Source: Oribacterium sp. P6A1 (lineage in GTDB: Bacteria; Bacillota; Clostridia; Lachnospirales; Lachnospiraceae). From it: a stretch of 35,265 nt of DNA. The notes beneath the pieces are model-generated. The model saw only the letters and a list, made by a program, of their open reading frames with translations. It had not been told where the DNA came from and made no database searches. Positions within the stretch are counted from its first letter, which is position 1, and each line of letters opens with the position of its first letter. Positions 16,054 to 33,879 of the stretch are shown here, one piece after another. The translations under genes were made by a program, and so were the position numbers. The stretch covers positions 1-35,265 of the forward strand of contig NZ_JNKO01000026.1 in the NCBI RefSeq assembly GCF_000702885.1, given 5' to 3'.

Positions 16054-16314
16054 TTAGTCATTCTTATGATGCTTCAGGTAATTCTCCATCTTAGCTGTAA
16101 ACTCCTTCTCAGAAAGTCCTGCTCTGGAAGCCGCATCAGGTAGTGTCATAACTTTTTCATTCACCAATGAGAAAAGAAGCGACTGCTGTCCTTCCTGCCA
16201 ACCTTCCTCGAAACCTTCCTCTTTCATTCCTTTTACAAACGATTTCTCATCAAATTCTGTAAGCACCATATCCACTACCTCCGCTCTGTGCGCTAACAGC
16301 CAATCCGGTTCCAT
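16054..16314 (-). pseudogene. Rpn-type recombination-promoting nuclease, C-terminal fragment
   Basis: 86 residues resembling the C-terminal tail of Rpn/YhgA-like (PD-(D/E)XK transposase-like) proteins: DWLLAHRAEVVDMVLTEFDE followed by the charged EEGFEEGWQEGQQ segment. The nuclease core, which would precede this, is missing. The Met at 16314 lies 7 nt after the stop of the giant pilin gene and has no ribosome binding site. It is probably a remnant, perhaps of an insertion or deletion event after the pilin gene. Confidence 0.65.
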
Positions 16315-16321
16315 GTGACAT

Positions 16322-19300
16322 TCACGAAAACCTCAATATTCCCCAGTCACCATAGAATAACATTAATTTGGTATCCGAATCCTCTATATAACCATTACTA
16401 TCAGTCCAGTTTTTATAAGGATAATCAGCTATAGGATGAAGCGAATCCACATGAAAAGTATGTCCTTCTCCGGTTTTGTCAACATTATCTGTATTTCCCC
16501 ATATATGGATGCATTCATTTTCTCCGTCTTCGACTATGCTTATAGTTCCACTGCTAGCAGCCTCTGCCAGCTCATGCATGTTATTATAACCGTCATATCT
16601 GTCAAGATAATAAGCATTAGTAACTGATGCAGAGCCTTCTATTCTGCCGGCAAATGCTCCATGATGCTGCCAAACCGAAGTCCATGGTCTTACATATCCC
16701 ACTGTATAACAGTTATTTATCACTGAACTATCAGAACAAACTCCAGCAAATCCTCCTATGTAATCCTGACCGGCATTGAGTCCGGGTCCCAAAGAAGTTA
16801 TGGAATTAGTCGAGAAGCAATTCTCTATTGTCACAGGATTAACAGATGAACTCTTTACCACTCCGACAAATCCGCCGATAGAACTGCAGTAATTACCGAT
16901 TATATTCCAGCGCCCCGCTATTTCCATATCATCTGTCCTGTCTACCACAGTTCCGCCGGAAGTATGACCGCCGGCATAACAATTTGATATGTTGCCTGTA
17001 CAAGTATGATCACTGATGTTTCCGATGAAACCGCCGACTCCGATACCGGATCCAGATAGATAAGCTGTGGCAAAGCTGTTTTTAATATCCATATGGACCC
17101 CGGCAACCTTTCCTATAAGTCCTCCCAAATCGCCATTATACGCATTGAGAGTTCCATTGCTAATACGACCGGAGTGAGCAAAGACTCCCACACAGTTAAT
17201 GTTCAGAGAACCTTTGTCCATATAACCCAGCGCTCCACCTGCTTCTACATAACCATAAACATCGATTCTTCCATCTATGCTTATATTCTTCATGGTAAGG
17301 TCAGAGCTTGTATAGCCAACGACACCACCACTCTCCATGCGACTCAAAACCGTAGTAGTACCATAAATAATGACGTTTTCCACAGTCAGCTTCGCTCCCG
17401 GATTTCCAACTATAATTCCGGATGCCAGCGTACCTGTCTGTAAATCAGAATTACCCACGGTAGTGTTACTGAAAAACAGATTTTTCACTGTTAATGCAGT
17501 TGTTGTTTTTGCAAACAATCCAGCATTTACTCCACCGTTTATATAGTTAGTGTCCAGATTAAAATTATGCATCGTACGTATCTGTCCATCATACTCAGTG
17601 ATATCCGGATTATATATGGACAGCATCTTTCCTGCACTGCTCAGCTTGTAGTCTTTATACAATTCATACATAGAAGCTGCCGGCAGTTCTGTAAGATAAG
17701 GCTGGGTTTCAGCATTATAAAGGTTTGTACCATAGGTACCATCATCTTCCCAATAAATATCATCAGTCTGTATGGCTTTTGTTATCCTGATTCCAAGACC
17801 GGAAATGGCCGGATTCAGATTCATGAGATGTCGGCTGTTTGATATATATGCTGTATAAGTACCGTCTGCATTCTTTTCTGTCTTTTGGAATAGGCTATTA
17901 GCAGTTATGGAAATATCTGTTGAGGTTTTTATGCCATCAAAAGTCGGACTGATATAAACCGTGAAATTCTCTCCGGCTGTAGGTTCCGTCCAAAAGCTTT
18001 GCATGGTTCCCTTATAATTGGTCCTGTTTCCTGATATATTGTCAACATAAAAGTCCAAAAACTTCTTTCCGCCTCTTTTTACATATACCGCTCTGCCGGT
18101 ATTTACATTAAAGTAATTCTGCCATCCGTCACCTACCTGTATGGCCTGAATAATCACAGCGTCATCATTGTATAGAACTTTATAGTACTCCTTTGCTTTA
18201 CTTAATTCTCCCTCCAATCTTAAATATGTCACATTATAGACAGTAGTTCCCACAAGTTCAGTGCTGTAAGTTTCATTCTCTTTCAGATATACAGAAACCT
18301 TTAATCTATTTCCATTATCCACAGAAACAGGGCTTAACTTTTCAGGCACCATCCAGTCGCCGTAAAATACTGTATGCCCTAAGCCGTTTTGGGATGTATC
18401 CCTGTATGGGAATTCTTCTAATTTCTTATTGAAAGTAATAACATCAACAAACTCATGATAGTCATTTCTAATATGAGACGAATCATGATCTACAAATTCT
18501 ATTCCGGTTATCTCATAGGCTGGTGAGCTTATCGGATCTCCAAAATTCACTAGTTTCAAAGTTGTATCATCATTAAAGTTGTCACCCTGTAGAACATATA
18601 CGTTTTCAAATATAGGTATTTTATCTTTATCATTCTCTAAAGTCCATTTTTTACCATTATAGTTATGTCCTATAAAAGCACCCATTAAATCTGTGCCGGA
18701 GTAAAGCTTACCTTCCGCATAACAGTTACTATATTTCTGAAATTTGTGTTGCATTCTTCCAATAAATCCACCTACCGCACCACTTTTATTTGTTTCATCG
18801 CCTATTGTTGCCTCAGAATGAACCGATGATGTAGTAAAGCATCTTTGAATGAGAGTCTGTTCATTCATATCAGTTCCGATGTACCCTATAAATCCTCCAC
18901 TTGCTATATATCCGCAGACATTATATCCACCAGGTTCTACTATGGTTGTCACCGTCGACAGATCCGAAATACTTATATTCGTCGACAGAGCACTACGACC
19001 AATATAAGTCTCATCCAAACTAACGTGTCCTCCGGCAAAACAGTCTGAAATAGTTGATTGTCTCTTAGGCTGAAATGCTCCAATAAATCCTCCGGCACAA
19101 CGAGATTTTTCTGCATAAACATATGCAGATGCGCCGGAATCATTGATATAATAAGCCCCATACAACGCATATCCTATTAGCCCACCTGCATGAGGGCCAG
19201 TTTTAGGATTTTTATCCTCCGATAATGTTCTTACAAGTGCATTCTTTCCGTAAACATAAACATTATATATTTTAAAGGTACCACCATTACCATTCTCAGA

Positions 19301-22300
19301 CTCTCCACTTCTATCAGTCTCACCTATAAGTCCACCGGCACTTCCATTTTCAGAAACCACAACAGGCTCGATCAGAGTAAGGTTATGAATCTTTTTAGTC
19401 TCTCCGGTAGAGGTCTTTATAAGTCTGAAAAGACCTGCACTTGCATTTTTTTCCGGATCGGTTGAAACAGGATTTTTGTTATAAATAAAAATATTGTTGA
19501 TACTCTTATTATTTCCGTCAAAGTCCAGAATATTTGGATTGTAAATGCCATAAAATGCATTTTCTACCGTCAGGGCTTCAGGATCCGATTCATCTCCTGC
19601 CTCTCTGAAAGGATAAATCAATACAGATGATTTCCCGCTTTCAGTTTTTATGGCATCCAGAAAAGCCCTGTTTGCTGAACCGGCACTGCTTACAGAATCA
19701 TCAGAAGCTTTCCAGTAAAGATCTTTCAACAGCTTAACTTTTGTGTAATCACTGTCAATGTTTGAGACTGTAGTATCCAGATTCTGAAGATGTCTGAAGT
19801 TCATGATCAATGCTGTTTTACTGTACTCAGATGCACTGGCAGGGACTGCCGCTATAGCCTCTGCCGGATTTATATCACTGTAATGTGAATATTCATACTT
19901 TTCGTTTTGAATATATCCTGAACCTGCCGCAAACAGACTATTGGTGATACCTGACATAGGAAGCCTCTTACCAACAGGCTTCGAAAGTTCTGTGATAGCA
20001 TCACTCCTTAATTTAATCCAGTCTACAAATCCCTGCCTTATCGAAATCCTTATATCCTCCCCGTTTACGAAACCATCATAAAACTGAGAAGCAAAACTCA
20101 GTCCCGGTTCTGTAACATCATCTAAGTAGATTCCAAAATACGCCATATCACCGTAAATTACTTTATTATATCTTACGGATTTGATATAAAAAATCTCTGA
20201 CCCGTCATGTTCACCGGAAAGATTTGAAAGAGCTGTTTCTTCCGGTATGGTTTCGACATCATTTATTCCATTATTGAGCATACCCAGATTGATCTGCATA
20301 TATGCTTTCCTACCGCTGGTCATGCCTTCCATCAGAAATGAAGCGACAGTATTAGAATTCAGGCTGTTTAAAGGTAAAGAAAGCACAGCAAGAAGTTTTT
20401 CTTCATTACTGATAAATAATTTAAGGTTATTTGGCTTAGCAAGAGCCCAGTCTCCCCGGTGATCATCAAAGTCTGATTCAGCGCCGCTTAACTGTCTGAT
20501 GGTTTTATATGCATAGGTATTTCCCAGTTCAGCATCCCAGGGATATGCAACTTTATCAGCTGTTCTCAGAATCTCATCACCAGAGGTTTCAAAAATATTT
20601 GTCACTGTACCGGTTCCTGCTGCCGCAATCGACTCATTAAATCCCACACCCTTCAGATAGTAATTATCATTATTGCCATCTTTTCCGGAAGCTGTTCCGC
20701 TTCCCACAAAGCCTCCTTTGATTCCTCCTGTCACAGAATCTATAAGTCCTGTACAGTAGGTGTTTGAAATACGTATCCCGTTACTTTTGCCAATGAACCC
20801 ACCGGCATAAGAAGCGTATACAGAAGCTGTTGCATAGGAATTTGTTACATTGACTGCAACTTCTGCATTACCAATGAAGCCTCCCGCATTGAGGCCTGAG
20901 TTGACATTAAAATTATAAGCTGAAACTTTCTTTTCAGTTCCGTTTCTGTAGCTTGCGCCTCTTGTATGTCCTGAGGCATAAGAACCATCTATGTCATTAT
21001 CCGCTACCGATGCCACAAGGCCTATGAAACCTCCTGCATTGCTTCCTGCAAAAACATATGAAGTACAGTAAGTCTTCTTTATGTCCAGTCCGCCTGATGC
21101 CTTTCCTATTATTCCTCCGGCATTACTGCTTTCTCCCTTGCCCTCTGTTTTTATTTTTTCGCCCAGTACATAGCAGGAAAGCAGTTTCGCTTTCCCACTG
21201 GTGCTTCCTAAAAGTCCTCCGGCATTTTCATTTCCTTCCACAGTAAAAGTGTCATCTCTGATATCGGATGCGCTCAGTTCAGCTTCATTAGAGCATCCGC
21301 CTATGCCTCCGGCATCCCCTGAAGCACTGATTTTATTGTCTGCTCCTGTAAAATGAACATGCTCTGTCCTGAACACACCTGTGATTTTCCCCGCAAATCC
21401 GCCGGCACTTCCACTTTTTGCAGATATATTTGCAGCTTTTCCAAGGATATTACAATTGTTGACACGCATCAGGCTTCCTGTGTTCTGTCCGACAAATCCG
21501 CCCGCATTTCCGCCATTTGAAATAATCTCTATAGCAGAACCTGAATACTGGGAAGATACCTTATCTTGTCCTGTGATATCGCATTCTACTATCTCAAGCA
21601 GGTTATCACTTTTTCCTACAAACCCTCCGGCATCACATCCGTCACCCAGAGAGCAGATTTTGTGACTGTTCATTCTGAGATAACAGTTCGTCAGTTTAGC
21701 CTTGCTAACAGCATGGGCAACAAAGCCCCCTGCATTTCCTGCATCGGTGCTTTTCACAAAATCACTGTTTTCTATTGTAAGATTCTTGATGCTGAAGGTC
21801 TTTGTCCCATCATTTAATGAAGCATAGGAGAAAAGACCTGTATCACCATTCTTTCCTGTGGATGAATATATATTTTTGATGCTGTGACTGTAGCCATCAT
21901 AGCTAACAAGGTCCTCATTAGATACACCATAGTATCCTGCTCCCAAAACTGACCCATCATATTTATAAATCTTCAGGGTTCTGCCGGCGTTATCTGAAAT
22001 ATCTTTTCTTATATCAAAAACAAAGGATCCGTTACCGCTATAAGTGATATCACCTGACTGGAATGCATCCGTTACACTTATCTCTCCTTTTTTTCCTTTA
22101 AGCTCGTCATAGAGACATTTACGCTTCAAGCTGAGATTGGAAATATCAGGGTCAAGATTCTCAAGATGCCTTATGTTCCTGATTTCCGCTCTGCTCCCGT
22201 TAAGGCTCTGAAACAGACTGTTTACTTCAGCTTTTGTGCTTTCAGGAGCTGCCAGCACTGAATCATCCATGATCTCAGCTTCTATTTCAAGCTGCTCGCC

Positions 22301-23353
22301 CGGAATCATATATGGAAAACTGTTATAAAAATGGCCGTTCTTTGAGGTTATGTCATCCAGAGTAAAGGTGAAATATTCTGATTTTAATACTGTTTCATGT
22401 CCCCACTCAGGGTATGACACATTATCGTCACTTACCGAAGGTCCGTTTGCGTTGGAGTATCTTGTCTTAACAGCGGCCCCTGACACAGTTCCAAGGGTTT
22501 TTAAATACATGATCTGTTGGTTTTCGCTGGTAAGTCCCTTTACCTTTAAAAGTATGGTCTGCTGGTCTGTTGAGGTATTATAGGTTTTGTAATTAGGGTT
22601 TTCTATAGTTACCTTTAACTTTGAACCATTGTCAATGTCTACCTTCAGCGGCTTAAAAGTTACTGATGTGATATTATCCTTTTCAGCTGCAGTATAACAG
22701 CCTATGATGGAATCTTCCGTCTCTTTCCTGTAATGAACTCTCTTAGACCTGTCATTAACAGCATCCTTAAGATAAGCATTTCCGCTTTCATATGCTTCAT
22801 CAGCTGTAAACTGATGAATATGAGAGCCGCCAAAAAAGGTGTGAGCTTTTCCCGAATAAAAAACAGCAAGTACAGAAGCTGAATTTACTTCATAAACGAT
22901 AAGGTAATTTCCTTCTTCCTCTATCTCCTTATCTATGGCATAACCGGGAAGCATATACGAAAGAATGAGAGCTTTCGTGCCCCCCTCTTTTCCTGACCCA
23001 TTAGATATGATATAACGATAAACCGAATCTTCATTAACAAAATCAACGCCATCCAGATATCCGGGCTTCGTGTCCAGTTTTGCACCATAATTAGCGCTCA
23101 GATCTGTATCCTTATATTCCTGGTATTTTCTTTCATATTCTCCACTCGCAAAAGAAGCACTGAGATGATTCTGTGCAGCGATGAATATTTCCTTCGCTGT
23201 ATTATCCATCTCAAGTGCCTGAAGATTTCTTATATATCTGCTGACCGCAACAAAAGAAACTCCCGCAAGTATTCCCATGATCGCAATGACGACAAGAATC
23301 TCAGCAAGAGAAAATCCTTTACTGTTGGTTTTTCGTTTTACTGTTTCTATCAT
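16322..23353 (-). CDS. Giant prepilin-like protein with three GLUG-repeat modules
   Basis: 2343 aa. The N-terminus is a class III (type IV prepilin) signal: short basic leader, cleavage after G13 (SKG, then FSLAE), Glu at +5 (E18) and a hydrophobic helix to about 38. After a pilin-like region to about 235 come three tandem modules, about 235-970, 971-1663 and 1664-2343. Each runs: a beta-rich segment, NSLF, RHLxNLxPxIS (near 394, 1186 and 1841), a degenerate IYNPxIxxYDG segment, AGLF-like, then GLUG repeats of the form AGGFIGx(5-10)IxNCYAxG. Roughly 25 GLUG units are seen, in arrays near 545-885, 1340-1560 and 1980-2230; each array ends before a GDW motif. GLUG repeats are known from large surface proteins and probably fold as a beta-helix. 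It is the last intact gene of the pilus operon, 97 nt after the pilW-like gene, with a weak ribosome site. Inferred role: surface-exposed pilus-associated adhesin. Confidence 0.88.
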   Translation of the reverse strand: MIETVKRKTNSKGFSLAEILVVIAIMGILAGVSFVAVSRYIRNLQALEMDNTAKEIFIAAQNHLSASFASGEYERKYQEYKDTDLSANYGAKLDTKPGYLDGVDFVNEDSVYRYIISNGSGKEGGTKALILSYMLPGYAIDKEIEEEGNYLIVYEVNSASVLAVFYSGKAHTFFGGSHIHQFTADEAYESGNAYLKDAVNDRSKRVHYRKETEDSIIGCYTAAEKDNITSVTFKPLKVDIDNGSKLKVTIENPNYKTYNTSTDQQTILLKVKGLTSENQQIMYLKTLGTVSGAAVKTRYSNANGPSVSDDNVSYPEWGHETVLKSEYFTFTLDDITSKNGHFYNSFPYMIPGEQLEIEAEIMDDSVLAAPESTKAEVNSLFQSLNGSRAEIRNIRHLENLDPDISNLSLKRKCLYDELKGKKGEISVTDAFQSGDITYSGNGSFVFDIRKDISDNAGRTLKIYKYDGSVLGAGYYGVSNEDLVSYDGYSHSIKNIYSSTGKNGDTGLFSYASLNDGTKTFSIKNLTIENSDFVKSTDAGNAGGFVAHAVSKAKLTNCYLRMNSHKICSLGDGCDAGGFVGKSDNLLEIVECDITGQDKVSSQYSGSAIEIISNGGNAGGFVGQNTGSLMRVNNCNILGKAANISAKSGSAGGFAGKITGVFRTEHVHFTGADNKISASGDAGGIGGCSNEAELSASDIRDDTFTVEGNENAGGLLGSTSGKAKLLSCYVLGEKIKTEGKGESSNAGGIIGKASGGLDIKKTYCTSYVFAGSNAGGFIGLVASVADNDIDGSYASGHTRGASYRNGTEKKVSAYNFNVNSGLNAGGFIGNAEVAVNVTNSYATASVYASYAGGFIGKSNGIRISNTYCTGLIDSVTGGIKGGFVGSGTASGKDGNNDNYYLKGVGFNESIAAAGTGTVTNIFETSGDEILRTADKVAYPWDAELGNTYAYKTIRQLSGAESDFDDHRGDWALAKPNNLKLFISNEEKLLAVLSLPLNSLNSNTVASFLMEGMTSGRKAYMQINLGMLNNGINDVETIPEETALSNLSGEHDGSEIFYIKSVRYNKVIYGDMAYFGIYLDDVTEPGLSFASQFYDGFVNGEDIRISIRQGFVDWIKLRSDAITELSKPVGKRLPMSGITNSLFAAGSGYIQNEKYEYSHYSDINPAEAIAAVPASASEYSKTALIMNFRHLQNLDTTVSNIDSDYTKVKLLKDLYWKASDDSVSSAGSANRAFLDAIKTESGKSSVLIYPFREAGDESDPEALTVENAFYGIYNPNILDFDGNNKSINNIFIYNKNPVSTDPEKNASAGLFRLIKTSTGETKKIHNLTLIEPVVVSENGSAGGLIGETDRSGESENGNGGTFKIYNVYVYGKNALVRTLSEDKNPKTGPHAGGLIGYALYGAYYINDSGASAYVYAEKSRCAGGFIGAFQPKRQSTISDCFAGGHVSLDETYIGRSALSTNISISDLSTVTTIVEPGGYNVCGYIASGGFIGYIGTDMNEQTLIQRCFTTSSVHSEATIGDETNKSGAVGGFIGRMQHKFQKYSNCYAEGKLYSGTDLMGAFIGHNYNGKKWTLENDKDKIPIFENVYVLQGDNFNDDTTLKLVNFGDPISSPAYEITGIEFVDHDSSHIRNDYHEFVDVITFNKKLEEFPYRDTSQNGLGHTVFYGDWMVPEKLSPVSVDNGNRLKVSVYLKENETYSTELVGTTVYNVTYLRLEGELSKAKEYYKVLYNDDAVIIQAIQVGDGWQNYFNVNTGRAVYVKRGGKKFLDFYVDNISGNRTNYKGTMQSFWTEPTAGENFTVYISPTFDGIKTSTDISITANSLFQKTEKNADGTYTAYISNSRHLMNLNPAISGLGIRITKAIQTDDIYWEDDGTYGTNLYNAETQPYLTELPAASMYELYKDYKLSSAGKMLSIYNPDITEYDGQIRTMHNFNLDTNYINGGVNAGLFAKTTTALTVKNLFFSNTTVGNSDLQTGTLASGIIVGNPGAKLTVENVIIYGTTTVLSRMESGGVVGYTSSDLTMKNISIDGRIDVYGYVEAGGALGYMDKGSLNINCVGVFAHSGRISNGTLNAYNGDLGGLIGKVAGVHMDIKNSFATAYLSGSGIGVGGFIGNISDHTCTGNISNCYAGGHTSGGTVVDRTDDMEIAGRWNIIGNYCSSIGGFVGVVKSSSVNPVTIENCFSTNSITSLGPGLNAGQDYIGGFAGVCSDSSVINNCYTVGYVRPWTSVWQHHGAFAGRIEGSASVTNAYYLDRYDGYNNMHELAEAASSGTISIVEDGENECIHIWGNTDNVDKTGEGHTFHVDSLHPIADYPYKNWTDSNGYIEDSDTKLMLFYGDWGILRFS

Positions 23354-23450: not shown

Positions 23451-23987
23451 TCAGGCATTTACAGGAACTATCTTTATGTGTTCGATACCTACAAGTTCGA
23501 TAATCGAATCATTTTCTTTCTTTTTCACAGAGAGATCAATATCAAAATGATCATCATCGTATGTCACGTTCCAATCTGTAAAAATATCTTCTTTTTTCTG
23601 ATATCCTACAAGAGGTTGGGGGGCTGTAAATCCTCCATCCTTTTTATAGCTGATGGCTAAACCTCCGGTTCCTTCAGAAACAGTATTCAGCCTTATGATT
23701 CCTTCCGAAGCATGCTCAAAAGTCAAGGTTCCGCTTTCAACACTGAATGTTTCAGAATCCGGTTTTGCATATATAAGCTTGTCCTTTAAAAGAGTAAGGG
23801 TATTGGCAAGCAGCATCTGAGCCTCTTCATACTCGGTCATCTGCCTGTGAACTCTGGCCATTGTTGTCATTCCTGTAGCCACCATGATACCAACCATAGA
23901 CATGATTATAATCGTAGAAAGAGTCTCTGTAAGCGTAAATCCCCGACTGTCTGTAATTTTTTCAGAAATACTTTTCAGAACAGACAT
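23451..23987 (-). CDS. Minor prepilin, PilW-like
   Basis: 178-aa pseudopilin. Class III signal with 16-residue leader, cleavage at G16 before FTLTE (Glu at +5, E21) and a hydrophobic helix to about 39; then a coil and a short beta-rich C-terminal domain. The start at 23987 is preceded by AAGGAA at 7-8 nt. The frame extends to 24056, but a start there has no ribosome site and gives an oddly long leader. It lies between the PilV-like gene and the giant pilin. Assignment to PilW/PilJ is by length and position only. Confidence 0.8.
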   Translation of the reverse strand: MSVLKSISEKITDSRGFTLTETLSTIIIMSMVGIMVATGMTTMARVHRQMTEYEEAQMLLANTLTLLKDKLIYAKPDSETFSVESGTLTFEHASEGIIRLNTVSEGTGGLAISYKKDGGFTAPQPLVGYQKKEDIFTDWNVTYDDDHFDIDLSVKKKENDSIIELVGIEHIKIVPVNA

Positions 23988-24057
23988 GTTATTTTCCTTC
24001 ATCCCTTTTATTCTCTTTCGCTGTAATGCTTTTATACAATCTTTTTCACTTCTCATA

Positions 24058-24405
24058 TCAATAGCTATATATGATCATTTTATATTCGTCAGAAGACTCG
24101 TTTTTCTCATTACTGTATAGTTTAACGCCATCTGAACTGTCATATTGAGACTTTTCATAAACCGGAGACCTGCTGAAAACTATTTTTCCACCCGAATACT
24201 CTTTCACTTCCGTTCCCCTAACTTCCATCATGGAGTTCCTGGAATAATAGTCTTTTATGGTTTCCCTGCTGGACTTAACTATGTTTTGCGAAGCCATGAC
24301 CATCCCTGCGAAAATAAGCATTGAAACCGCCGCAATAAGTGTGGCAACCAAAACCTCAGATATAGTCTCACCTTTATTTTCAGTCAATTTTTTTAAACAC
24401 CGCAT
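24058..24405 (-). CDS. Minor prepilin, PilV-like, with Glu at +1
   Basis: 115 aa. The leader is MRCLKKLTENKG with cleavage expected after G12, followed by ETISE, so the +5 Glu (E17) is present but the +1 residue is Glu rather than the usual Phe or Met. A hydrophobic helix runs to about 38. GGTAAGG lies just before the ATG. It starts 8 nt after the PilX-like gene. It is probably a PilV/PilI-class minor pilin that helps prime pilus assembly; that role is by analogy. Confidence 0.72.
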   Translation of the reverse strand: MRCLKKLTENKGETISEVLVATLIAAVSMLIFAGMVMASQNIVKSSRETIKDYYSRNSMMEVRGTEVKEYSGGKIVFSRSPVYEKSQYDSSDGVKLYSNEKNESSDEYKMIIYSY

Positions 24406-24413
24406 ATCCTTAC

Positions 24414-25259
24414 CTAAGCTTTTTCTATAATTATAGGCGTAAATGTTAAATCGTACTCCCTTGTAATGGTAGTAGTCTCTTTTTTTTCATCTTCACTTAT
24501 ATTTTCTGTCACTGTACTCTCATGGGGTGTAACTGTTTTGTTACACTGCATCTTTAAAACCATAGAATATTCATTCATTGCAAGTCCGGCCGAGTCTTCC
24601 TGGATATCATTAATCAGCTTTATTGAGAGTTCCCCTGATGGCTTAAGATTTACTGACATTTTTACCTTTAATCCGGAAATATCTTCCGATCCGTTTTTTA
24701 CACTGATTTCCGTATCGCTTACAGTAATTCCCTCTTTGGCCTCATCACTTATATCACTCTCGCTCTTGAACCAGTCCTTACTAAAGGCATCCGGATAAGT
24801 ATCAGAATTCGATTCAGAAGTTTTTTCACCATAATTGGTGATTGAAGAATTTGTAAGCAGATACAAAAGTATATTATCCTCTGATCTTACATCAGAATTT
24901 ATCAACTGTTCACTGCCATTAACCACATGATAAAAAACAGGCTTCTCATAAGTGTAACTTGTTGTAACTTCCTCTTTAGGAACCTCATCTTCAATAGTTG
25001 TTACAGTTGTTTCCTCTATAATAAGTTTTTCTTTGGCTTTTATATGTTCATTTGAAAGCTGTTTCTCTATGAATTTTGCAGCAGATCTTACGGCATAGTA
25101 GTTCTGGTCAGAGGCCTTCATGCCCTCAAGTCTGCCTGCTGTTGTAGTAGCACCAAGGAGTATCATGCTTCCGGTAACCGCGCAGACCACAAAAAACAGG
25201 AGAGCCATCATGAGAGTCGCACCGCTATTTGATTTTAGTTTATTACTTATCGCACCCAT
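24414..25259 (-). CDS. PilX-like minor pilin component
   Basis: 281 aa. N-terminus SNSGATLMMALLFFVVCAV: a PilX_N-like membrane helix (about 14-36) after a Gly, without Glu at +5. The rest (about 60-281) is hydrophilic and rich in Ser, Thr, Glu and Lys, beta-prone and extracellular by inference. AAAGGG precedes the ATG. In other bacteria, proteins of this shape cap minor-pilin complexes together with PilV and PilW, which follow here directly. No sequence family beyond the helix was recognised. Confidence 0.65.
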   Translation of the reverse strand: MGAISNKLKSNSGATLMMALLFFVVCAVTGSMILLGATTTAGRLEGMKASDQNYYAVRSAAKFIEKQLSNEHIKAKEKLIIEETTVTTIEDEVPKEEVTTSYTYEKPVFYHVVNGSEQLINSDVRSEDNILLYLLTNSSITNYGEKTSESNSDTYPDAFSKDWFKSESDISDEAKEGITVSDTEISVKNGSEDISGLKVKMSVNLKPSGELSIKLINDIQEDSAGLAMNEYSMVLKMQCNKTVTPHESTVTENISEDEKKETTTITREYDLTFTPIIIEKA

Positions 25260-25433: not shown

Positions 25434-26129
25434 TCATCCGTTTTCCGCCGCTATTGATTCAGCGATAGTCTCCAGTGTATTTCTTTCCAGCTTGGAGAAA
25501 TCCGCTCCTGCCAGTCCAACATACTCATTCTTCTTTTTTGATTCTCCCATGATGAGTCCCGATGTGGTCTTTGCTCCGATCAGAGTCTCATAAAATGTCA
25601 CCGTCAGATTGCACCTTATCGGACTGTTCAGCACGCTTACAAAATTTTCGGTGGATTTGCTCACGGCAGAAACATTGACATCCTTTATCATGCAGCGGTA
25701 ACGGCTGTCATGAACCATCTGGATGATCTTTCTGCAGATCCGGTAATCCAATGCGGTAAAGCTGATTTTAATGTTTCTGCGGACAGTATTGTCCTCTGCC
25801 ACCGGAACCTCAAAGCCGTAGTTATAAGTTTCCGCAAGCGGAACAAAAATGGTGTTCAGAAACGCCGCCTCCGCCTTGAAATTGTCATAGGTCGAAACAA
25901 CACCTATCATGTTTTCCTGATTTTCGCTTACCTCTTCCTTCATGGACTGGATAAGCAGGGCTTTGTTCTTTTCGACCTCCAACTGTTCCTCTATCATAGA
26001 AGTATCTGCCGCCTCTATCCTGTCTCTTACAGGTATACGGATAAATCTGTAGTATACAAGTCCCAACAGCAGAACCACCAATATGAGCAGAAATACTTTT
26101 TCGATTTTTGTGAATGACCTGTTAAGCAT
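25434..26129 (-). CDS. pilO: Pilus inner-membrane alignment protein, PilO-like
   Basis: 231 aa. Short cytoplasmic N-terminus, one membrane helix (about 12-27), a coiled coil (about 35-75) and a small alpha/beta (ferredoxin-like) domain, the PilO layout. Position right after PilN and before the pilins supports this. AAGGAG precedes the ATG. Sequence similarity to Gram-negative PilO is low, so the name rests on architecture and order. Confidence 0.75.
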   Translation of the reverse strand: MLNRSFTKIEKVFLLILVVLLLGLVYYRFIRIPVRDRIEAADTSMIEEQLEVEKNKALLIQSMKEEVSENQENMIGVVSTYDNFKAEAAFLNTIFVPLAETYNYGFEVPVAEDNTVRRNIKISFTALDYRICRKIIQMVHDSRYRCMIKDVNVSAVSKSTENFVSVLNSPIRCNLTVTFYETLIGAKTTSGLIMGESKKKNEYVGLAGADFSKLERNTLETIAESIAAENG

Positions 26130-26181: not shown

Positions 26182-27336
26182 CTAGCCCCAGGGTGATCCG
26201 CTCTGTATCGAAACCGAACCGCTTCCGAAAGGATTGGCGGAAGGGGTATCGATATAAACGTTCTGTGCTGAAGTACTTCCTCCTGTCTGGGCTGCTGCCT
26301 GCTGCTGGGCTGCCCATGCCTGTTGTTGGGCTGCCGCCTGAGCTGCTGCCTGCTGCTGGGCCGCCGCCTGTGCCGAAGAATTCGAAGAAGACTTGGAACT
26401 TGATTTGGATGAAGAACCGGTACTTCCGGAACTGTTTCCCGTACTTCCGCTCTTGGAACTGCTGCCTGAGCTGTTGTTCTTTGAGCTGCTGTTCTTAGAA
26501 CTGCTGTTTTCAGATTTTGAATTCTCTGACTTTTCTTCAGCCACCGTTCCATCCTCTGTCTCCGGAGCGACAGTCTCCATGATATAGGGTACGTAAGCAT
26601 TATCCCCTACAGCCTGTCCGGTAGGACTCGCATCAAGGTAAGCATCCACAGTTTCACTTCCGCTTGAAACGGCATTGGTTACTTCCTCAGGTGAACGGAA
26701 ATATACTGTGATCGATGCATCCACATACTGGGGAGCGATGACATTGCCCTCCTCATCCACAGTAACCTTGTTGTAATTCTGTTCCACCGTGCTGGCTGTC
26801 TGGGCCGTAACATAGCTTATATACTCCGACTCCTCCAAAGACCTGATGATCTCGGGAAGACGGTTGGCATCTGCTATTCCGAGTTTTATCTCTGCCACAT
26901 TTCCGGAAACATTGACACTCTGAATAGCGCCTTTCTCATGTATGCGCTCGTCAATGATGTTCAGCATGGTCACCATATCCTGGGCGGCTGATTCCTCATC
27001 CGTCATGTAGCTGTTTCCGTATCTGCTGTATTCAGTCCGGACATCCATGAACTCATTGTTCTTTTCCTGAAGTTCCTGAAGCTCATGAAGCTTCTCGGCA
27101 TAAATCCTCTCAGCATTATCTGCTTTACTCAGTTCCCTGTATACACCGTATTTTGTGAAGAAATACAGAAGTACAAGATAAACTGCAAACAACGAAAGGG
27201 AGAAGGCTATATTTCTTACCTTCTTTTCCTTGTACATGAGATTTATGTATTTTTTACTGGGATACTTTTTATCACGTCTTATCCCTATGCTCTTCGACGT
27301 TTTCGTGGTAGCCAAGAATATGCCCCCTATACTCAA
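26182..27336 (-). CDS. pilN: Pilus inner-membrane protein, PilN-like, with low-complexity tail
   Basis: 384 aa. A basic cytoplasmic N-terminus includes YINLMYKEKK (30-39), matching the INLLP-type motif by which PilN docks into PilM; then a membrane helix (42-60), a coiled coil (about 65-95) and a ferredoxin-like domain to about 250. Unusual: about 80 residues (272-350) of Ser/Asn/Lys/Gly then Ala/Gln repeats, probably disordered. The start is a TTG at 27336 overlapping the pilM stop (TTGA); another TTG at 27315 with AGGGGG upstream is possible. Confidence 0.78.
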   Translation of the reverse strand: MSIGGIFLATTKTSKSIGIRRDKKYPSKKYINLMYKEKKVRNIAFSLSLFAVYLVLLYFFTKYGVYRELSKADNAERIYAEKLHELQELQEKNNEFMDVRTEYSRYGNSYMTDEESAAQDMVTMLNIIDERIHEKGAIQSVNVSGNVAEIKLGIADANRLPEIIRSLEESEYISYVTAQTASTVEQNYNKVTVDEEGNVIAPQYVDASITVYFRSPEEVTNAVSSGSETVDAYLDASPTGQAVGDNAYVPYIMETVAPETEDGTVAEEKSENSKSENSSSKNSSSKNNSSGSSSKSGSTGNSSGSTGSSSKSSSKSSSNSSAQAAAQQQAAAQAAAQQQAWAAQQQAAAQTGGSTSAQNVYIDTPSANPFGSGSVSIQSGSPWG

Positions 27337-28715
27337 CTGTTCCCTTTACTTATCTGTTCCGTAAGCTCTTCTATAGCTCTTAATGTATCTGTGTTTACTT
27401 CTTTCGTATCTTCGACAGTACTCTCTTCGGAAGAATATCCGACGGTATCGGAATGTGCACCCTGCCCGGTCTCTTCAGGTTCACTGTCATCAAGTCTCAC
27501 CAGTTCTTCATCATTCCCTTCCGGAACATGAATCTGTGTTTTCGAATTCAGGAAAGATTCCGGAATAACTGTTCCGGAAGATTCATTATCTGAACTCTCT
27601 GTAACGGCTGATATGCTGTCTTCATAAGCCTCTGCTTTCTCCGATGAATCAGCAGTTTCAAAACTATCCTGCTGCTTTCTTGCTTCTGCGATCTCCGCTT
27701 CCGAAAGAGCTGTCACATCCTCATCCGGATCCAGCGCAACACCGTAGCTTTGAGGACTCAGCGAAAAAGCGAGTCCAATTTCCTCATCTAAAATACCTGC
27801 AAGATCCCTGAGGGGTCTCACCGGAATGTTCAGAGTCTCCGAAAGTATCTCTACCAGTTTCCTGATATTGCCTGAACCTCCGAAATAATAAAGCGTATCA
27901 ATGGTATTTGAAGTATTGCTGTAACTATAGAAATTCAGCGCTCTCATGATCTCTACCGCCCTGCTTTCATACAGCTGTACAAGCTTTTCATGAGTCTGAA
28001 TGTCGTTGACATTTTCCTCTTCCGTGATACGGGCGATATGAACATCAGTACCCGTTATCTCAGAGATCGTCTGTGCAAATGAATATCCTCCCGGCTCCAG
28101 GCTTCTGGTTACGTCGTAGACCCCATGATTGTAAAAATGAATCTTGAAGCTCTGATCACCCATATCCAGTATGGCATAATCCTTATCTGCCGGAACCGAA
28201 AACAGCTGATTGTATCTGTTCAGTATCCGCTGTATTCCGATCACATCCGGAACCAGTCCTATAGGATTCAGCTTTGCGTTTTTCGCTAAATTTCTGTATT
28301 TGTTTATGAGCTCTCTGCTGCAGGCTACAGCAAGAAGCTTCATATTTTTTTCGCCCTGCTCGATAACGGCATAATCATAGAAATATTTATCCGTATTGTC
28401 TGAAATATAATCCTGAAACTCAAAGGGAAGATTCAATTCCAGCTGCTTAATGGTCATGACAGGCAGCTCTACCGCCCTGACATAAACTCCGTTTACGGGT
28501 ACGCTGAAAATAACATTTTTGCACCGGATTCCATGCGACTTGAAGGTATCCTTCAAAAAAATCGCCATGGCATCCCAAAATTTTATCATGCCGCCCTTAA
28601 CAGCATTGTCAGGTACATCCTCATAGAAGGACTTTTTAACATTTCCCTTTACTATATATGATACTTTTATCCGATAATCACCTATGTCAATGCCGACAAC
28701 TTTAGTGCTTTTCAT
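27333..28715 (-). CDS. pilM: Pilus actin-like ATPase PilM
   Basis: 460 aa. FtsA/actin-fold protein recruiting PilN at the inner face of the membrane. Nucleotide-site motifs are phosphate 1 VVGIDIGDYRIKVSYI at the N-terminus, phosphate 2 YAILDMGDQSFKI, and the adenosine motif LYYFGGSGNIRKLVEIL. The start at 28715 has GGAGG at 7 nt; the open frame to 28778 is upstream of it. The last ~120 residues form an acidic, Ser/Glu/Asp-rich tail beyond the normal PilM fold, probably disordered. Confidence 0.9.
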   Translation of the reverse strand: MKSTKVVGIDIGDYRIKVSYIVKGNVKKSFYEDVPDNAVKGGMIKFWDAMAIFLKDTFKSHGIRCKNVIFSVPVNGVYVRAVELPVMTIKQLELNLPFEFQDYISDNTDKYFYDYAVIEQGEKNMKLLAVACSRELINKYRNLAKNAKLNPIGLVPDVIGIQRILNRYNQLFSVPADKDYAILDMGDQSFKIHFYNHGVYDVTRSLEPGGYSFAQTISEITGTDVHIARITEEENVNDIQTHEKLVQLYESRAVEIMRALNFYSYSNTSNTIDTLYYFGGSGNIRKLVEILSETLNIPVRPLRDLAGILDEEIGLAFSLSPQSYGVALDPDEDVTALSEAEIAEARKQQDSFETADSSEKAEAYEDSISAVTESSDNESSGTVIPESFLNSKTQIHVPEGNDEELVRLDDSEPEETGQGAHSDTVGYSSEESTVEDTKEVNTDTLRAIEELTEQISKGNS

Positions 28716-28861
28716 TCTTACCTCCATGAACCAGGCACGGGAAGCATTCCTCCTCACCAGTATCTGACCCATCAACAAAGTTTAAGTATTCATTTTAAAA
28801 CCTGAACCGCATATTCATACTATGACATGAGTGTCAAAAGTCGATATCGGACCGCTTCGCG

Positions 28862-29740
28862 CTATGCCAGTAAACCAGTATACCAAACAATAAACTCACT
28901 TCCTATCGTGATAGAAACCAAAGATGCCACCGAAATAGACGGTCCAAAAGGTATTTTTTCCTTTTTCAGGCAAAAAACAAAAATCAGCCCGACTATACAG
29001 CTCAGAATCAGATTAAAAAATGCAACAAAGGTGCTCATATAAAGCCCTGTCACGAACAGCAGCTTAATGTCTCCGCCTCCCAGTGATTCCTTACCCGATA
29101 CCTTGTCAAAAACCAGGGATACTATCATCATGAAAAGTGCCACTGATAAAGCACTCACAAAGCCCATCATGAAATCCCTGATCAGGTAGGAATAAAAGGT
29201 CAGGCCTGTAAAATCCCCGGGAATATTATCTGCTGCCGCAAGATAGAAGTCCGGTGACAGATAGCTCATAATGCCCACTCCCTTTGTGTATGTTATGAGC
29301 GGAAGTGTCAGCAGCCACCACGCTATACCCGCCGCATGAAATCTGTCGGGTATGATATAGGTCTTCAGATCCACGAGACTGAGTCCCATAAGTATAACTG
29401 CAAGCCCCATACTTCTCAGGGCAACAAATGAAACATCAAATTTAAAAACAAATACAACAAAAACCGTGCCAAGGACTAACTCGACCCATGTAGATTCCGA
29501 GCTTATCTTTGCCCCGCAATACCTGCACTTTCCGCCTGAACCGATATATGAAACAATCGGTATCAGATCTCTGATTCCAAGCTGATGATTGCATACATCA
29601 CAATGAGACCGTCCGCTGAGAACTTTCTCTTTCTTTACGATACGCCAGGCAGTACAGTCTATGAAGCTTCCGAATACAGCTCCCAGGACAAATGCAATAA
29701 CCAGAACATATATCATCAACCCTATGCTTGTATGGTACAT
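28862..29740 (-). CDS. pilD: Type IV prepilin peptidase
   Basis: 292-aa membrane aspartyl protease of family A24 that removes the prepilin leader and often N-methylates the new N-terminus. It has the N-terminal GSFIDCTAWRI block, a zinc knuckle of two CxxC pairs (C47/C50 and C72/C75), and catalytic Asp D124 (LVDLKTYIIPD) and D224 (GGGDIKLL), with about seven to eight membrane helices. AAGGAAGG precedes the ATG. It is the first gene of the pilus operon here and the natural processing enzyme for the downstream prepilins, including the giant one. Confidence 0.95.
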   Translation of the reverse strand: MYHTSIGLMIYVLVIAFVLGAVFGSFIDCTAWRIVKKEKVLSGRSHCDVCNHQLGIRDLIPIVSYIGSGGKCRYCGAKISSESTWVELVLGTVFVVFVFKFDVSFVALRSMGLAVILMGLSLVDLKTYIIPDRFHAAGIAWWLLTLPLITYTKGVGIMSYLSPDFYLAAADNIPGDFTGLTFYSYLIRDFMMGFVSALSVALFMMIVSLVFDKVSGKESLGGGDIKLLFVTGLYMSTFVAFFNLILSCIVGLIFVFCLKKEKIPFGPSISVASLVSITIGSEFIVWYTGLLA

Positions 29741-30151: not shown

Positions 30152-30712
30152 ATGAAGTTGAAAAAATTATTAGCAGCAGGACTTGCATCACTTATGATCG
30201 TAGGTTCATCTATGACAGCTATGGCCGGCATGTGGATGCAGTATGGCGGATCATGGTTCTACCTTAACGATTACGGCACATTCACTACAAACCAGTGGGT
30301 TGGAAACTACTACCTCGGACCTACAGGTGCTATGCTCACAAACACATGGACACCTGACGGATATTTCGTAGGCGCTGACGGAAAGTGGATTCCTAATGCA
30401 GCATCCGGTGATGTAAACAACAGCCTTTCACATATCGGAACATATCTTTGGGCATATACAAAGAGTTCTAACGGAAGTGTTGTAAATGCATACTACACAG
30501 ATACACGTCAGGTTTCTATAAACAACGATAAGTCACTTACTGTTATCCAGACAACAAACGGTGTTGTTGGTGCTACTTCACAGGTTTCATTCCTTGGAAC
30601 AAATCAGTACGTAAGTGTTATCAACGGTCTCAAGTATTCATTCCCTTCATCAATCGAGCTTGTTATCACTGATAATCAGGGTACTGAGATGCACTACGCA
30701 AAGATTTCTTAA
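30152..30712 (+). CDS. Secreted cell-wall-binding repeat protein
   Basis: 186 aa. A clear Sec signal peptide (KLKK, hydrophobic core, AMA cleavage near residue 25) precedes two to three choline-binding-like aromatic repeats (about 26-85: GGSWFYLNDYGTF, NYYLGPTGAML, GYFVGADGKWIPN). The unassigned C-terminal ~95 residues are rich in Ser, Asn and Thr. GGAGG lies 8 nt before the ATG. It is transcribed alone, divergently from the pilus operon, and is followed by a strong terminator. It probably attaches non-covalently to wall polymers; the C-terminal function is unknown. Confidence 0.85.
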   Translation: MKLKKLLAAGLASLMIVGSSMTAMAGMWMQYGGSWFYLNDYGTFTTNQWVGNYYLGPTGAMLTNTWTPDGYFVGADGKWIPNAASGDVNNSLSHIGTYLWAYTKSSNGSVVNAYYTDTRQVSINNDKSLTVIQTTNGVVGATSQVSFLGTNQYVSVINGLKYSFPSSIELVITDNQGTEMHYAKIS

Positions 30713-31462: not shown

Positions 31463-32074
31463 TTAAAGTTGTCCGGCCTTTTTCTTTAAAGTAAATTTAT
31501 CGACCATCTCTACAGCGAAGGAAATCGGATAAAGCTGAACCATAGTTGAGTGTATAAGATCGCCGATATCCATCTTGAAAGCAACCTTTACGAACTGATC
31601 CTGGGGCGAAGCAAATATCTTTTCAAATGTCTTTACACTGTCAACATCAATTTTGCACACTTCCGGCGGGCTGATATCAACCATACGATCGAGTAAAGCC
31701 GCAAGAGATGTTGCCGATGCTCCCATCATCTGGTTCATAGCCTCTGATATGGCACTAAGGTGCATCTCATTCACCTCTTCCTGATTATTGGTCCCGTCAC
31801 CACCCATCATAAGATCCGTAATGGATACTACATCCGGCTGCTGAAGAATAAAAACATTGTTTCCGTCAAGTCCAACAATATAATGTATCTGAACGAATAT
31901 GCATGTCCTCTCATAATCGTCCAGAGCCGCGCTGCGATTGATAACACTGACTCCGGGTGTCGTGATATTAACGGGAAGATTAACCAGCTTACTTAAGTTA
32001 GTAGCCGCATTTCCCATACTTATGTTCGCAATTTCGCCTAAAATATCTTTTTGTTCATTAGTTAACTCACTCAT
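31463..32074 (-). CDS. CheC/FliY-type CheY-P phosphatase
   Basis: 203 aa. Both CheC-family phosphatase signatures [DS]x3Ex2Nx22P are exact: D10-E14-N17-P40 and S107-E111-N114-P137. Two sites are typical of CheC and the FliY N-terminal domain. There is no SpoA/FliN C-terminal domain, so it is a stand-alone enzyme, probably dephosphorylating CheY-P or another response regulator. GAGGGAA lies upstream of the ATG. It follows the EAL gene by 128 nt. No chemotaxis or flagellar genes are visible around it, which leaves open a role in pilus or other signalling. Confidence 0.9.
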   Translation of the reverse strand: MSELTNEQKDILGEIANISMGNAATNLSKLVNLPVNITTPGVSVINRSAALDDYERTCIFVQIHYIVGLDGNNVFILQQPDVVSITDLMMGGDGTNNQEEVNEMHLSAISEAMNQMMGASATSLAALLDRMVDISPPEVCKIDVDSVKTFEKIFASPQDQFVKVAFKMDIGDLIHSTMVQLYPISFAVEMVDKFTLKKKAGQL

Positions 32075-32202: not shown

Positions 32203-33879
32203 TTATTTCAAATATTTATCAGCGAATGTGTCCATAGGTATAGGTTTTGAGTAAAGATATCCCTGCATCTTATCAACTTTACAGCCCCTTAAGGTATCTC
32301 TCATTTCAACAGTTTCCACACCTTCAGCGCATGTTATGGCTCCAAAGATTCCTGCAAGCTTATTTACGAGTTTCACCAAAGATGACTGCTTTTCATCGCT
32401 GACGATATCCTTCACAAACTGTCTGTCAATCTTTAACACATCAATAGGCAATTCCTGAAGCAATTCAAGTGATGAAAAACCTGTTCCGAAATCATCAATT
32501 GCAATCTTAATTCCTTTGTTTCTAAGCTTGCCGCTTAAGTCTTTAAGCATATTATGATCCAGGAGCCTGCACCTTTCGGTTATCTCAAGACACAGATTTT
32601 CCGGAGGAAAACCTGCCTCCTCAATCGCCTTATTTACAACACTCAGAAAATTCAGCTGCTGAAGCTGTGCATAAGACAAATTGATATTTAAAACAAAGTC
32701 CGGACAAGTATCCAGAATTCCCAGACATTCTTCCATGGAATGTCTCAATATCCATTCTCCCAGTTCCGGGAACAATGCATCGCTCTCAAGGACAGGAATA
32801 AAATCATTAGGCATGACAAGGGATCCGTCATCATCGATCCAGCGTATCAGAGCCTCTGCTCCCACAAGATTCTCGGATTTTGCATCGAGAATAGGCTGAT
32901 AGTAAATTACGAAATTCCTGCAGCCGTTGGCTACGCATTTCCTTATCCTGTTGATTCTTTCCAGCTCGTCAATACCGTTTTTTCTTAATCCTGTATCAAA
33001 GAAACAGAAGCCTCCCTGCTTAGTGTACTTGGACTCCTGATATGCATGAATGAGACAGGACAGGATAGTATCAACATCCACGTCAAAGCTGTCTACTGAA
33101 ATAGCGCCTGCATTGATATTGAGTTTAACCTGTTCTCCTTCAAACTCAAAAGCCGTAGCAGCTCTTTCTCTGTAGGATTCATAGTTTTTTTCCAGTTCCT
33201 CTATGGTGGCATCCCGGCTTATCATCGCAACCTTCACGCCATCAAGTCTGTATAAATCCCCCTTACCCGCGTCATGATCAAGCATAAACCTGATTATATG
33301 CTGAAAAATACGTGTACCGAAATCGTATCCGAAGATATCATTGATCCTTGTATAGTTTGTTGAACCGTACATAACTATCTTAATAGGAACATGGGATTTC
33401 AAGTACCTGTGTACATCCTGAAAAAATCCGTTCTGATTCCGTAATCCTGTGATGTTATCTACACTTTCATTTACAGAATGATTTCTTATCATTCCGACAA
33501 AGTATTCCGGTTCATCATTATCATCTTTTAAAACAATCCCTCTGCAGGTACAGGTATAATACTTTCCTGATACATCTCTGACTCTGTATTGGATATCATG
33601 CTTTCCTTCGCCGCTGCTGAAGAGCTCATCTATACTTTCCCTGTAAATGCCTCTGTCCTCGGGATGAATATATCCCTCCCAGACATCTCCGGCCGCATAG
33701 ATGTATTCCGACTCCAGTCCATACAATTCAACTGCGCTCTTTGACCAGCGGGAATAATTATATCTCATGTCACAGACATATACATCCGTTCCCTCTGCGA
33801 CCATGGCATATGATTCAAACATTCTGTTTAATTTATCAATTCTGTTCTGTGTGATCTCTTTCATATCCGAATACAACAT
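32203..33879 (-). CDS. PAS - degenerate GGDEF - EAL c-di-GMP phosphodiesterase
   Basis: 558 aa, cytosolic. A PAS domain (about 25-135) with a PAC-like end; a GGDEF fold (about 140-300) whose signature is replaced by DGVKV (213-217), so no cyclase activity is expected; and an EAL domain (about 315-555). EAL catalytic residues are all present: E342 (EAL), N400, E432, D462-D463 (DDFG), K483, E519 and Q539. It should hydrolyse c-di-GMP, with PAS and GGDEF modules as sensors. No clear Shine-Dalgarno precedes the Met at 33879; an in-frame ATG at 33864 is an alternative. Confidence 0.92.
   Translation of the reverse strand: MLYSDMKEITQNRIDKLNRMFESYAMVAEGTDVYVCDMRYNYSRWSKSAVELYGLESEYIYAAGDVWEGYIHPEDRGIYRESIDELFSSGEGKHDIQYRVRDVSGKYYTCTCRGIVLKDDNDEPEYFVGMIRNHSVNESVDNITGLRNQNGFFQDVHRYLKSHVPIKIVMYGSTNYTRINDIFGYDFGTRIFQHIIRFMLDHDAGKGDLYRLDGVKVAMISRDATIEELEKNYESYRERAATAFEFEGEQVKLNINAGAISVDSFDVDVDTILSCLIHAYQESKYTKQGGFCFFDTGLRKNGIDELERINRIRKCVANGCRNFVIYYQPILDAKSENLVGAEALIRWIDDDGSLVMPNDFIPVLESDALFPELGEWILRHSMEECLGILDTCPDFVLNINLSYAQLQQLNFLSVVNKAIEEAGFPPENLCLEITERCRLLDHNMLKDLSGKLRNKGIKIAIDDFGTGFSSLELLQELPIDVLKIDRQFVKDIVSDEKQSSLVKLVNKLAGIFGAITCAEGVETVEMRDTLRGCKVDKMQGYLYSKPIPMDTFADKYLK

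Follow-up and report, generated by a model that had tools for sequence, protein, structure and literature searches.

What does a prepilin of 2343 residues, about ten times the usual size of a pilus subunit, do beside the genes of a pilus machine in the anaerobe Oribacterium sp. P6A1? The gene lies in a 35,265-nucleotide stretch of contig NZ_JNKO01000026.1 (assembly GCF_000702885.1; hereafter the window). By combining profile searches with comparisons across the genus, the family Lachnospiraceae and its order, we arrive at a reading to which we give a probability just short of 0.6: that this giant is a tip-proximal modular minor pilin, standing in the H position of a type IVa-like pilus and carrying a large adhesive graft.

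The open frame starts with ATG and runs through 2343 codons without an internal stop. An earlier note on this DNA had described it as a class III prepilin with GLUG repeats, and the profile searches bear that description out: Pfam N_methyl scores 26.7 bits against a cut-off of 21.2, the NCBIfam prepilin domain TIGR02532 scores 22.6 bits against 16.3, and Glug, taken over the whole protein, reaches 28.4 bits against 20.5, with no single unit attaining an E-value of 1. The leader (Table 1) is followed by F14-S-L-A-E18, which places a glutamate at +5, and then by one hydrophobic helix, the 19-residue segments starting at residues 11–23 being the sole part of the protein with a mean hydropathy above 1.6. 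When the protein is aligned with 15 relatives, Phe14 and Glu18 are invariant (16/16) and Gly13 is nearly so, with Ala in its place in one genome, G005. Approximately 225 N-terminal residues can be aligned across the window protein and 32 relatives, and a graft-free relative (G006, discussed below) ends approximately at this boundary. Pilins in the PDB, Streptococcus sanguinis PilE1 among them, match a profile that takes in this region (A2) at positions 5–69, that is, over the helical part only, and for the rest of residues 14–225 we infer a pilin globule. A class III signal joined to an extra domain that is not specific to pilus biology points to a modular type IV pilin. LPxTG with a C-terminal hydrophobic segment is absent from the window giant, and a second hydrophobic stretch is absent both from it and from all 17 further giants checked; a sortase-anchored adhesin was ruled out on the lack of LPxTG and of a second hydrophobic stretch. 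A tblastn search with residues 1–225 found no match in 72,556 plasmid records, on which ground a plasmid origin was rejected, and a promoter scan stayed at chance level (43 seen against 39.3 expected).

Behind the pilin module follow three mutually homologous graft modules of 600–800 residues each, with approximate limits, and each of them runs from a non-GLUG segment through an RHLxNL motif and a GLUG array to a GDW motif. Module profiles, each made from the window protein and four orthologues, align with one another in hhalign at a probability of 100 (E = 2.6e-39, 2.1e-48 and 1.1e-39, with 0.61 for a reversed control), and positions 225–407 of profile A2 match a second time at 17783–18340 of the window, in module 3. 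A unit profile made for this analysis recognises 20 GLUG units in the giant, the weakest at 6.3 bits, and none in each of 20 shuffles; since its 67 seed units come from five proteins, the giant itself and four orthologues, 20 is the count of a home-made model. By this count the earlier estimate of roughly 25 units is somewhat high, and the three arrays it described are confirmed, with 8, 5 and 7 units at residues 574–881, 1338–1553 and 1978–2221. A Glug search of the whole genome at E ≤ 0.001 gave no match, from which we take the units of the window to be divergent, and the GLUG module profile matched no solved structure in the PDB at E ≤ 1.

Table 1. Features of the giant prepilin gene and of its operon in the window, with the evidence for each
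Feature	Position	Strand	Basis
Giant modular prepilin, 2343 aa	16322..23353	-	Open frame; N_methyl and Glug exceed their Pfam cut-offs
Class III leader, residues 1-13, MIETVKRKTNSKG, Gly13 at -1	23315..23353	-	Motif and relatives
Pilin module, residues 14-225: hydrophobic helix and conserved region to near IGYYG-like motif	22679..23314	-	
Graft module 1, residues 226-1040	20234..22678	-	RHLENL 395, 8 GLUG units, GDW 967
Graft module 2, residues 1041-1680	18314..20233	-	RHLQNL 1187, 5 GLUG units, GDW 1665
Graft module 3, residues 1681-2343	16325..18313	-	RHLMNL 1841, 7 GLUG units, GDW 2335
Minor prepilin, J type (GFTLTE)	23451..24056	-	N_methyl 17.1 bits, below 21.2
Minor prepilin, I/PilV type (GETISE)	24058..24405	-	type_IV_pilV 18.8 bits, below 52.2; kept in relatives
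Minor prepilin-like, K type without Glu+5 (GATLMM)	24414..25259	-	GspK 16 bits, below 130
PilO/GspM-like	25434..26129	-	T2SSM 15.0 bits, below 27.8; synteny
PilN-like	26182..27336	-	PilN 17.3 bits, below 22.8; synteny
PilM	27333..28778	-	PilM_2 85.3 bits, cut-off 27
Prepilin peptidase (A24)	28862..29740	-	A24_N_bact 90.5 bits, cut-off 23

A prepilin peptidase, PilM, PilN-like and PilO-like proteins, three small prepilin-like proteins and the giant are all encoded on the minus strand. The operon proposed in the earlier note stands for the peptidase and PilM, which exceed their cut-offs (a second peptidase model, Peptidase_A24, gives 24.1 bits, slightly under 26.5), whereas PilN, PilO and the three small prepilins fall below the cut-offs of their models and owe their names mainly to position and synteny. 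The TTG start listed for PilM is probably too far upstream, judging from relatives that align from residue 22. In relatives, too, the J-type prepilin is the immediate upstream neighbour of the giant. Glu5 is absent from K in 11/11 sequences and present in I (11/11), J (10/10) and the giant (16/16), the sets for the small prepilins leaving out G004 and those for K and I including G052 of another family. The locus thus has the marks of an HIJK set in its K without Glu5 and its adjoining I and J; among operon ORFs of at least 80 residues there is no further H-like prepilin, and on the giant itself GspH gives 19 bits against a cut-off of 80 and ComGE 17.3 bits. Because K, I and J are present and the operon offers no other candidate, the giant is, by elimination, the likeliest H.

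The surroundings of the operon hold further genes. Between the giant and hisC lies an ORF of 86 residues without a Pfam match (16054–16314), which, judged by eye, may be akin to the C terminus of transposase-like proteins. A secreted-looking choline-binding-repeat protein is encoded near both pilus loci of the genome (window 30152–30712, plus strand, and L042:1240–1983). Upstream of the operon are genes for a PAS-GGDEF-EAL protein (32203–33879) and a CheC-like protein (31463–32074).

The motors and platform of the machine are encoded elsewhere. Contig C29, and not the contig of the operon, carries PilB, PilT, PilC and short pilins. Its PilB scores 419.5 bits with T2SSE, over the cut-off, contains an MshEN domain and stays under the cut-off of the type_IV_pilB equivalog (544.5 against 675.65), and its PilT passes a curated cut-off (429.9 against 319.1 bits). 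The same contig holds PilC, a pilin of 135 residues and two more prepilins, and, between PilB and PilT, a gene for a TraX-like membrane protein (L042:7800–8561). One more short prepilin is found on contig C35, and a separate ATPase and platform pair on contig C4 is probably of the Tad type. Across the genome, a type IVa-like machine is represented by prepilin peptidase, PilM, PilB-type ATPase, PilC-type platform and PilT, with PilN and PilO short of their curated cut-offs (Table 1). The MshEN domain binds cyclic di-GMP, and with the PAS-GGDEF-EAL and CheC-like proteins encoded upstream of the operon, second-messenger control of the pilus is possible.

The link between the giant and the pilus genes extends over the genus. 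The prepilin occurs in 11 of 17 genomes; exactly these 11 also have PilM, a coincidence with odds of 1 in 12,376 for independent genomes, an assumption that does not hold here. K-I-J stand directly upstream of the prepilin in all 11 (two of them cut by contig ends), and the order PilD-M-N-O-K-I-J-giant is common to Oribacterium sp. WCC10 and C9, Lachnospiraceae bacterium JC7, G014 and G005; beyond the giant, hisC-hisB follow in the window, WCC10, JC7 and C9. Seven of the 11 proteins have at least 2000 residues, those of G004 and G006 have 808 and 311, and those of G002 and G003 are cut by contig ends. The operon, the co-occurrence with PilM and the constant K-I-J order thus support the earlier note in tying the fusion to the genes of a type IV pilus, and the fusion is kept in relatives, contrary to one of the refuting results that the note had named. 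In the four closest orthologues the pilin module is 51–59% identical to that of the window and the graft segments 33–50%, so the pilin base is better kept than the graft. In G006 (L053:8287–9222) the slot after K-I-J is filled by a 311-residue pilin without a graft, a natural graft-free variant from which it follows that the graft is dispensable in that genome; an unrelated helicase gene comes after it. A tree of the pilin module places G006 beside forms of 800 residues, on a long branch and with weak support (90/76), a position that is consistent with, though no proof of, the graft having been lost. In G004, a frame of at least 1181 residues without a Pfam match lies behind the 808-residue giant (L048:12457–15999); on visual inspection its beginning resembles a Sec signal, and it is perhaps a separate secreted partner.

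Related proteins recur well beyond the genus. At 1e-6 the N-terminal profile matches 161 of 397 family genomes, in many cases by way of short pilins of the ordinary kind. From 75 bits upwards, a threshold chosen in this analysis, there are at least 57 matches in 52 of the 397 sampled family genomes, a figure that includes the window's own genome and reflects at most four scored candidates per genome, and in which G000, G018, G020, G028 and G031 match by construction through their rows in the query (A1). Measured from stop to stop, the frames reach at least 1000 residues in 44 of these 52 genomes, at least 2000 in 36 and at least 3000 in 21, the longest having 7664 residues; long frames under 75 bits are left uncounted (G346, 3452 residues at 64.9 bits; G246, 676 at 72.5; G160, 1696 at 53.5). 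Of 295 genomes sampled across the order, 37 match at 1e-15 and 28 reach 75 bits, and 22 of the latter have frames of 1000 residues or more; the rows of A2, the query for the order-wide and genus searches, likewise match by construction. PilM matches 311 of 397 family genomes, and we used only the genus-level PilM test because the family matches are, in our judgement, swamped by FtsA-like proteins and other PilM relatives.

A starred split divides the pilin-module tree into one group with 23 rows and another with 10. In the group that contains the window, 12 of 17 genomes have PilM, PilN or PilO within the stretch that was fetched; in the other group, five of eight genomes have PilC there and three of eight have PilB together with PilT. 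A core machine gene above 100 bits accompanies the giant in 15 of 24 fetched stretches beyond the window; the other nine have none, and a K-I-J set is found in two of these. The 24 stretches represent 23 genomes, three of them of the genus, and were scored with profiles built here, of which those for PilB, PilT and PilC rest on one sequence each. The wider family varies more than the orthologues of the window do, since among 26 other giants N_methyl exceeds its cut-off in 14, Glug in six (the best, in G309, at 32.5 bits) and both in only two; GLUG therefore recurs in the family without being present throughout, and many of the grafts have no match to anything known. Our own unit profile found no GLUG unit in the giants of G031, G028, G018 and G020, nor in 11 of 17 further giants. 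The RHL motif occurs in 24 of 29 translated loci (window included; of 30 loci, L064 was left out), the five others being two short stretches, that of G369, which has the motif further on, and two G398 giants that lack RHLxN altogether.

Several individual loci stand out. Contig C19 of G218 encodes a prepilin-like protein of 7662 residues beside PilT, PilB and PilD (L092:2577–20000 and L093:1–5565), with N_methyl at 20.5 bits, slightly under 21.2; its last ~250 residues match the wall-cutting domains NlpC/P60 (55.9 bits) and Hydrolase_2 (51.8 bits). G115 (L101) has two J-plus-giant pairs in tandem, with giants of 782 and 797 residues, and G223 (L098) has two consecutive giants of 3220 and at least 2098 residues.

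GLUG proteins (PF07581) include M26 IgA1 proteases, and we take IPR011493 to be GLUG and the architecture IPR012902-IPR011493 to be prepilin plus GLUG. The accessible parts of a survey of modular pilins, which covers more than 1,200 proteins in 264 architectures, name this architecture, assign it to M26 peptidases, and call an 860-residue protein the most extreme, for its number of domains (PMC8179133). Pilin–GLUG fusions are probably already among the published modular pilins, and as the 860-residue case is extreme by domain number and not by size, we claim no size record for the giant. Like GLUG proteins in its above-cut-off Glug score, the giant differs from them in having no HExxH and in being held by a pilin helix. 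Papers on giant or GLUG-bearing Lachnospiraceae pilins were absent among the matches listed, which lie mostly outside subscription journals. The term "poorly described" used in the earlier note thus holds in part: the principle of modular pilins has been surveyed in print, whereas the size, the triple module and the wide, machine-linked occurrence were not found there. To our knowledge, the solved grafts of monoderm modular pilins are all small (vWA, lectin).

The accessible text on S. sanguinis PilB and PilC describes, as here, a class III signal, a small pilin module and a larger C-terminal graft (PMC8179133, PMC9934059), in a monoderm with a pilus gene set, and PilA, PilB and PilC are modelled as an adhesive complex at the tip (PMC9934059). 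In contrast to the three GLUG modules in 2343 residues here, those grafts are vWA or lectin domains (PilB has 50.5 kDa), and where the giant has a K-I-J set beside it, S. sanguinis has PilA, PilB and PilC. PilC/PilY1 of diderm type IVa pili is also very large and modular, and in the available passages PilY1 sits at the tip with HIJK, a complex of four minor pilins that K caps in the published model (PMC9934059, PMC10191384). PilY1, however, does not belong to the pilins and, according to those passages, is lacking in monoderms, and the giant gives no match to a PilY1-type (beta-propeller) Pfam domain at E ≤ 1. The tips of Myxococcus Kil/Tad pili (KilLMN) likewise have a large minor pilin whose distal extra domain confers function; they differ in belonging to Tad pili, in comprising three subunits and, as far as the accessible text goes, in that a GLUG graft is not described (PMC12075869).

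The giant could in principle reach the cell surface without being part of a filament. Its pilin helix, cut or uncut, might only anchor it, with the graft crossing the wall unpolymerised as a membrane-held stalk, and the single membrane segment, the lack of any wall anchor found and the nine stretches without a core pilus gene would all agree with this, as would a rough estimate by which three modules could span a monoderm wall. Against it stand the joint occurrence with PilM across the genus and the gene order K-I-J-giant, and the invariance of Phe+1 and Glu+5 in 16/16 sequences would be needless for a mere anchor; we regard such a stalk as unlikely, if worth keeping in mind. Nor does much favour a pseudopilus-like piston or a cargo-recognition subunit of a secretion machine in place of a surface-pilus adhesin. 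The weakly scoring minor-pilin models do include type II secretion and competence types besides those of type IV pili, but PilT exceeds its curated cut-off, the genome encodes several short pilins, and the graft far exceeds in size any cargo receptor known to us, so that we consider this role quite improbable.

A surface enzyme displayed on a pilus, such as an M26-type peptidase, would accord with the assignment of IPR012902-IPR011493 in the accessible parts of the survey (PMC8179133) and with the one far relative that ends in NlpC/P60 and cell-wall hydrolase domains. HExxH is nevertheless missing from the window giant and from 15 relatives (two of them partial), and no catalytic Pfam domain matches the giant at E ≤ 1; we judge an enzyme to be very improbable, and an M26 peptidase was rejected for the window giant on the absence of this zinc motif. 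That a sequencing or assembly error joined two genes, which the earlier note had placed near residue 60–240 if it existed, we consider practically excluded, given intact long fusions in other assemblies and a codon-position GC without obvious change across the junction.

We therefore favour a tip-proximal modular minor pilin with a large adhesive graft, and hypothesize the following course. The pilin module would sit in the membrane, where the prepilin peptidase of the operon would cut after Gly13. The giant would join the tip-initiating minor pilins K, I and J and take the H place below the cap formed by the Glu5-less K; H links the minor-pilin tip complex to the filament. Because a pilin near the tip emerges ahead of the rest of the filament, a large graft can ride on it, and the three GLUG modules, exported beyond the membrane, would be carried through the wall on the growing filament to act as a large tip-proximal adhesin, with PilT retraction pulling the cell towards whatever the giant holds. 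The adhesive role is suggested by the repeat architecture and by analogy with S. sanguinis PilB and PilC.

Extending this to the other genomes, we tentatively posit, at odds somewhat below even, that giant modular pilins of ~600 to more than 7,600 residues form a widespread monoderm class in Lachnospiraceae and sister families, built on a pilin base, usually with a segment ending in RHLxN, and on open-ended grafts, and that they fill the H place and play the part that PilY1 has in diderms, with distal cell-wall hydrolase domains in at least one lineage. That such proteins recur beside pilus genes in relatives suggests a way of displaying very large surface proteins on a pilus. Pilus-mediated adhesion of monoderms, which proceeds without PilY1, is little explored, and a conserved class of pilins 10–50 times the normal size would readily answer how it is achieved, while posing a testable physical question: how a protein of ~250 kDa or larger joins a filament that passes through a thick wall.
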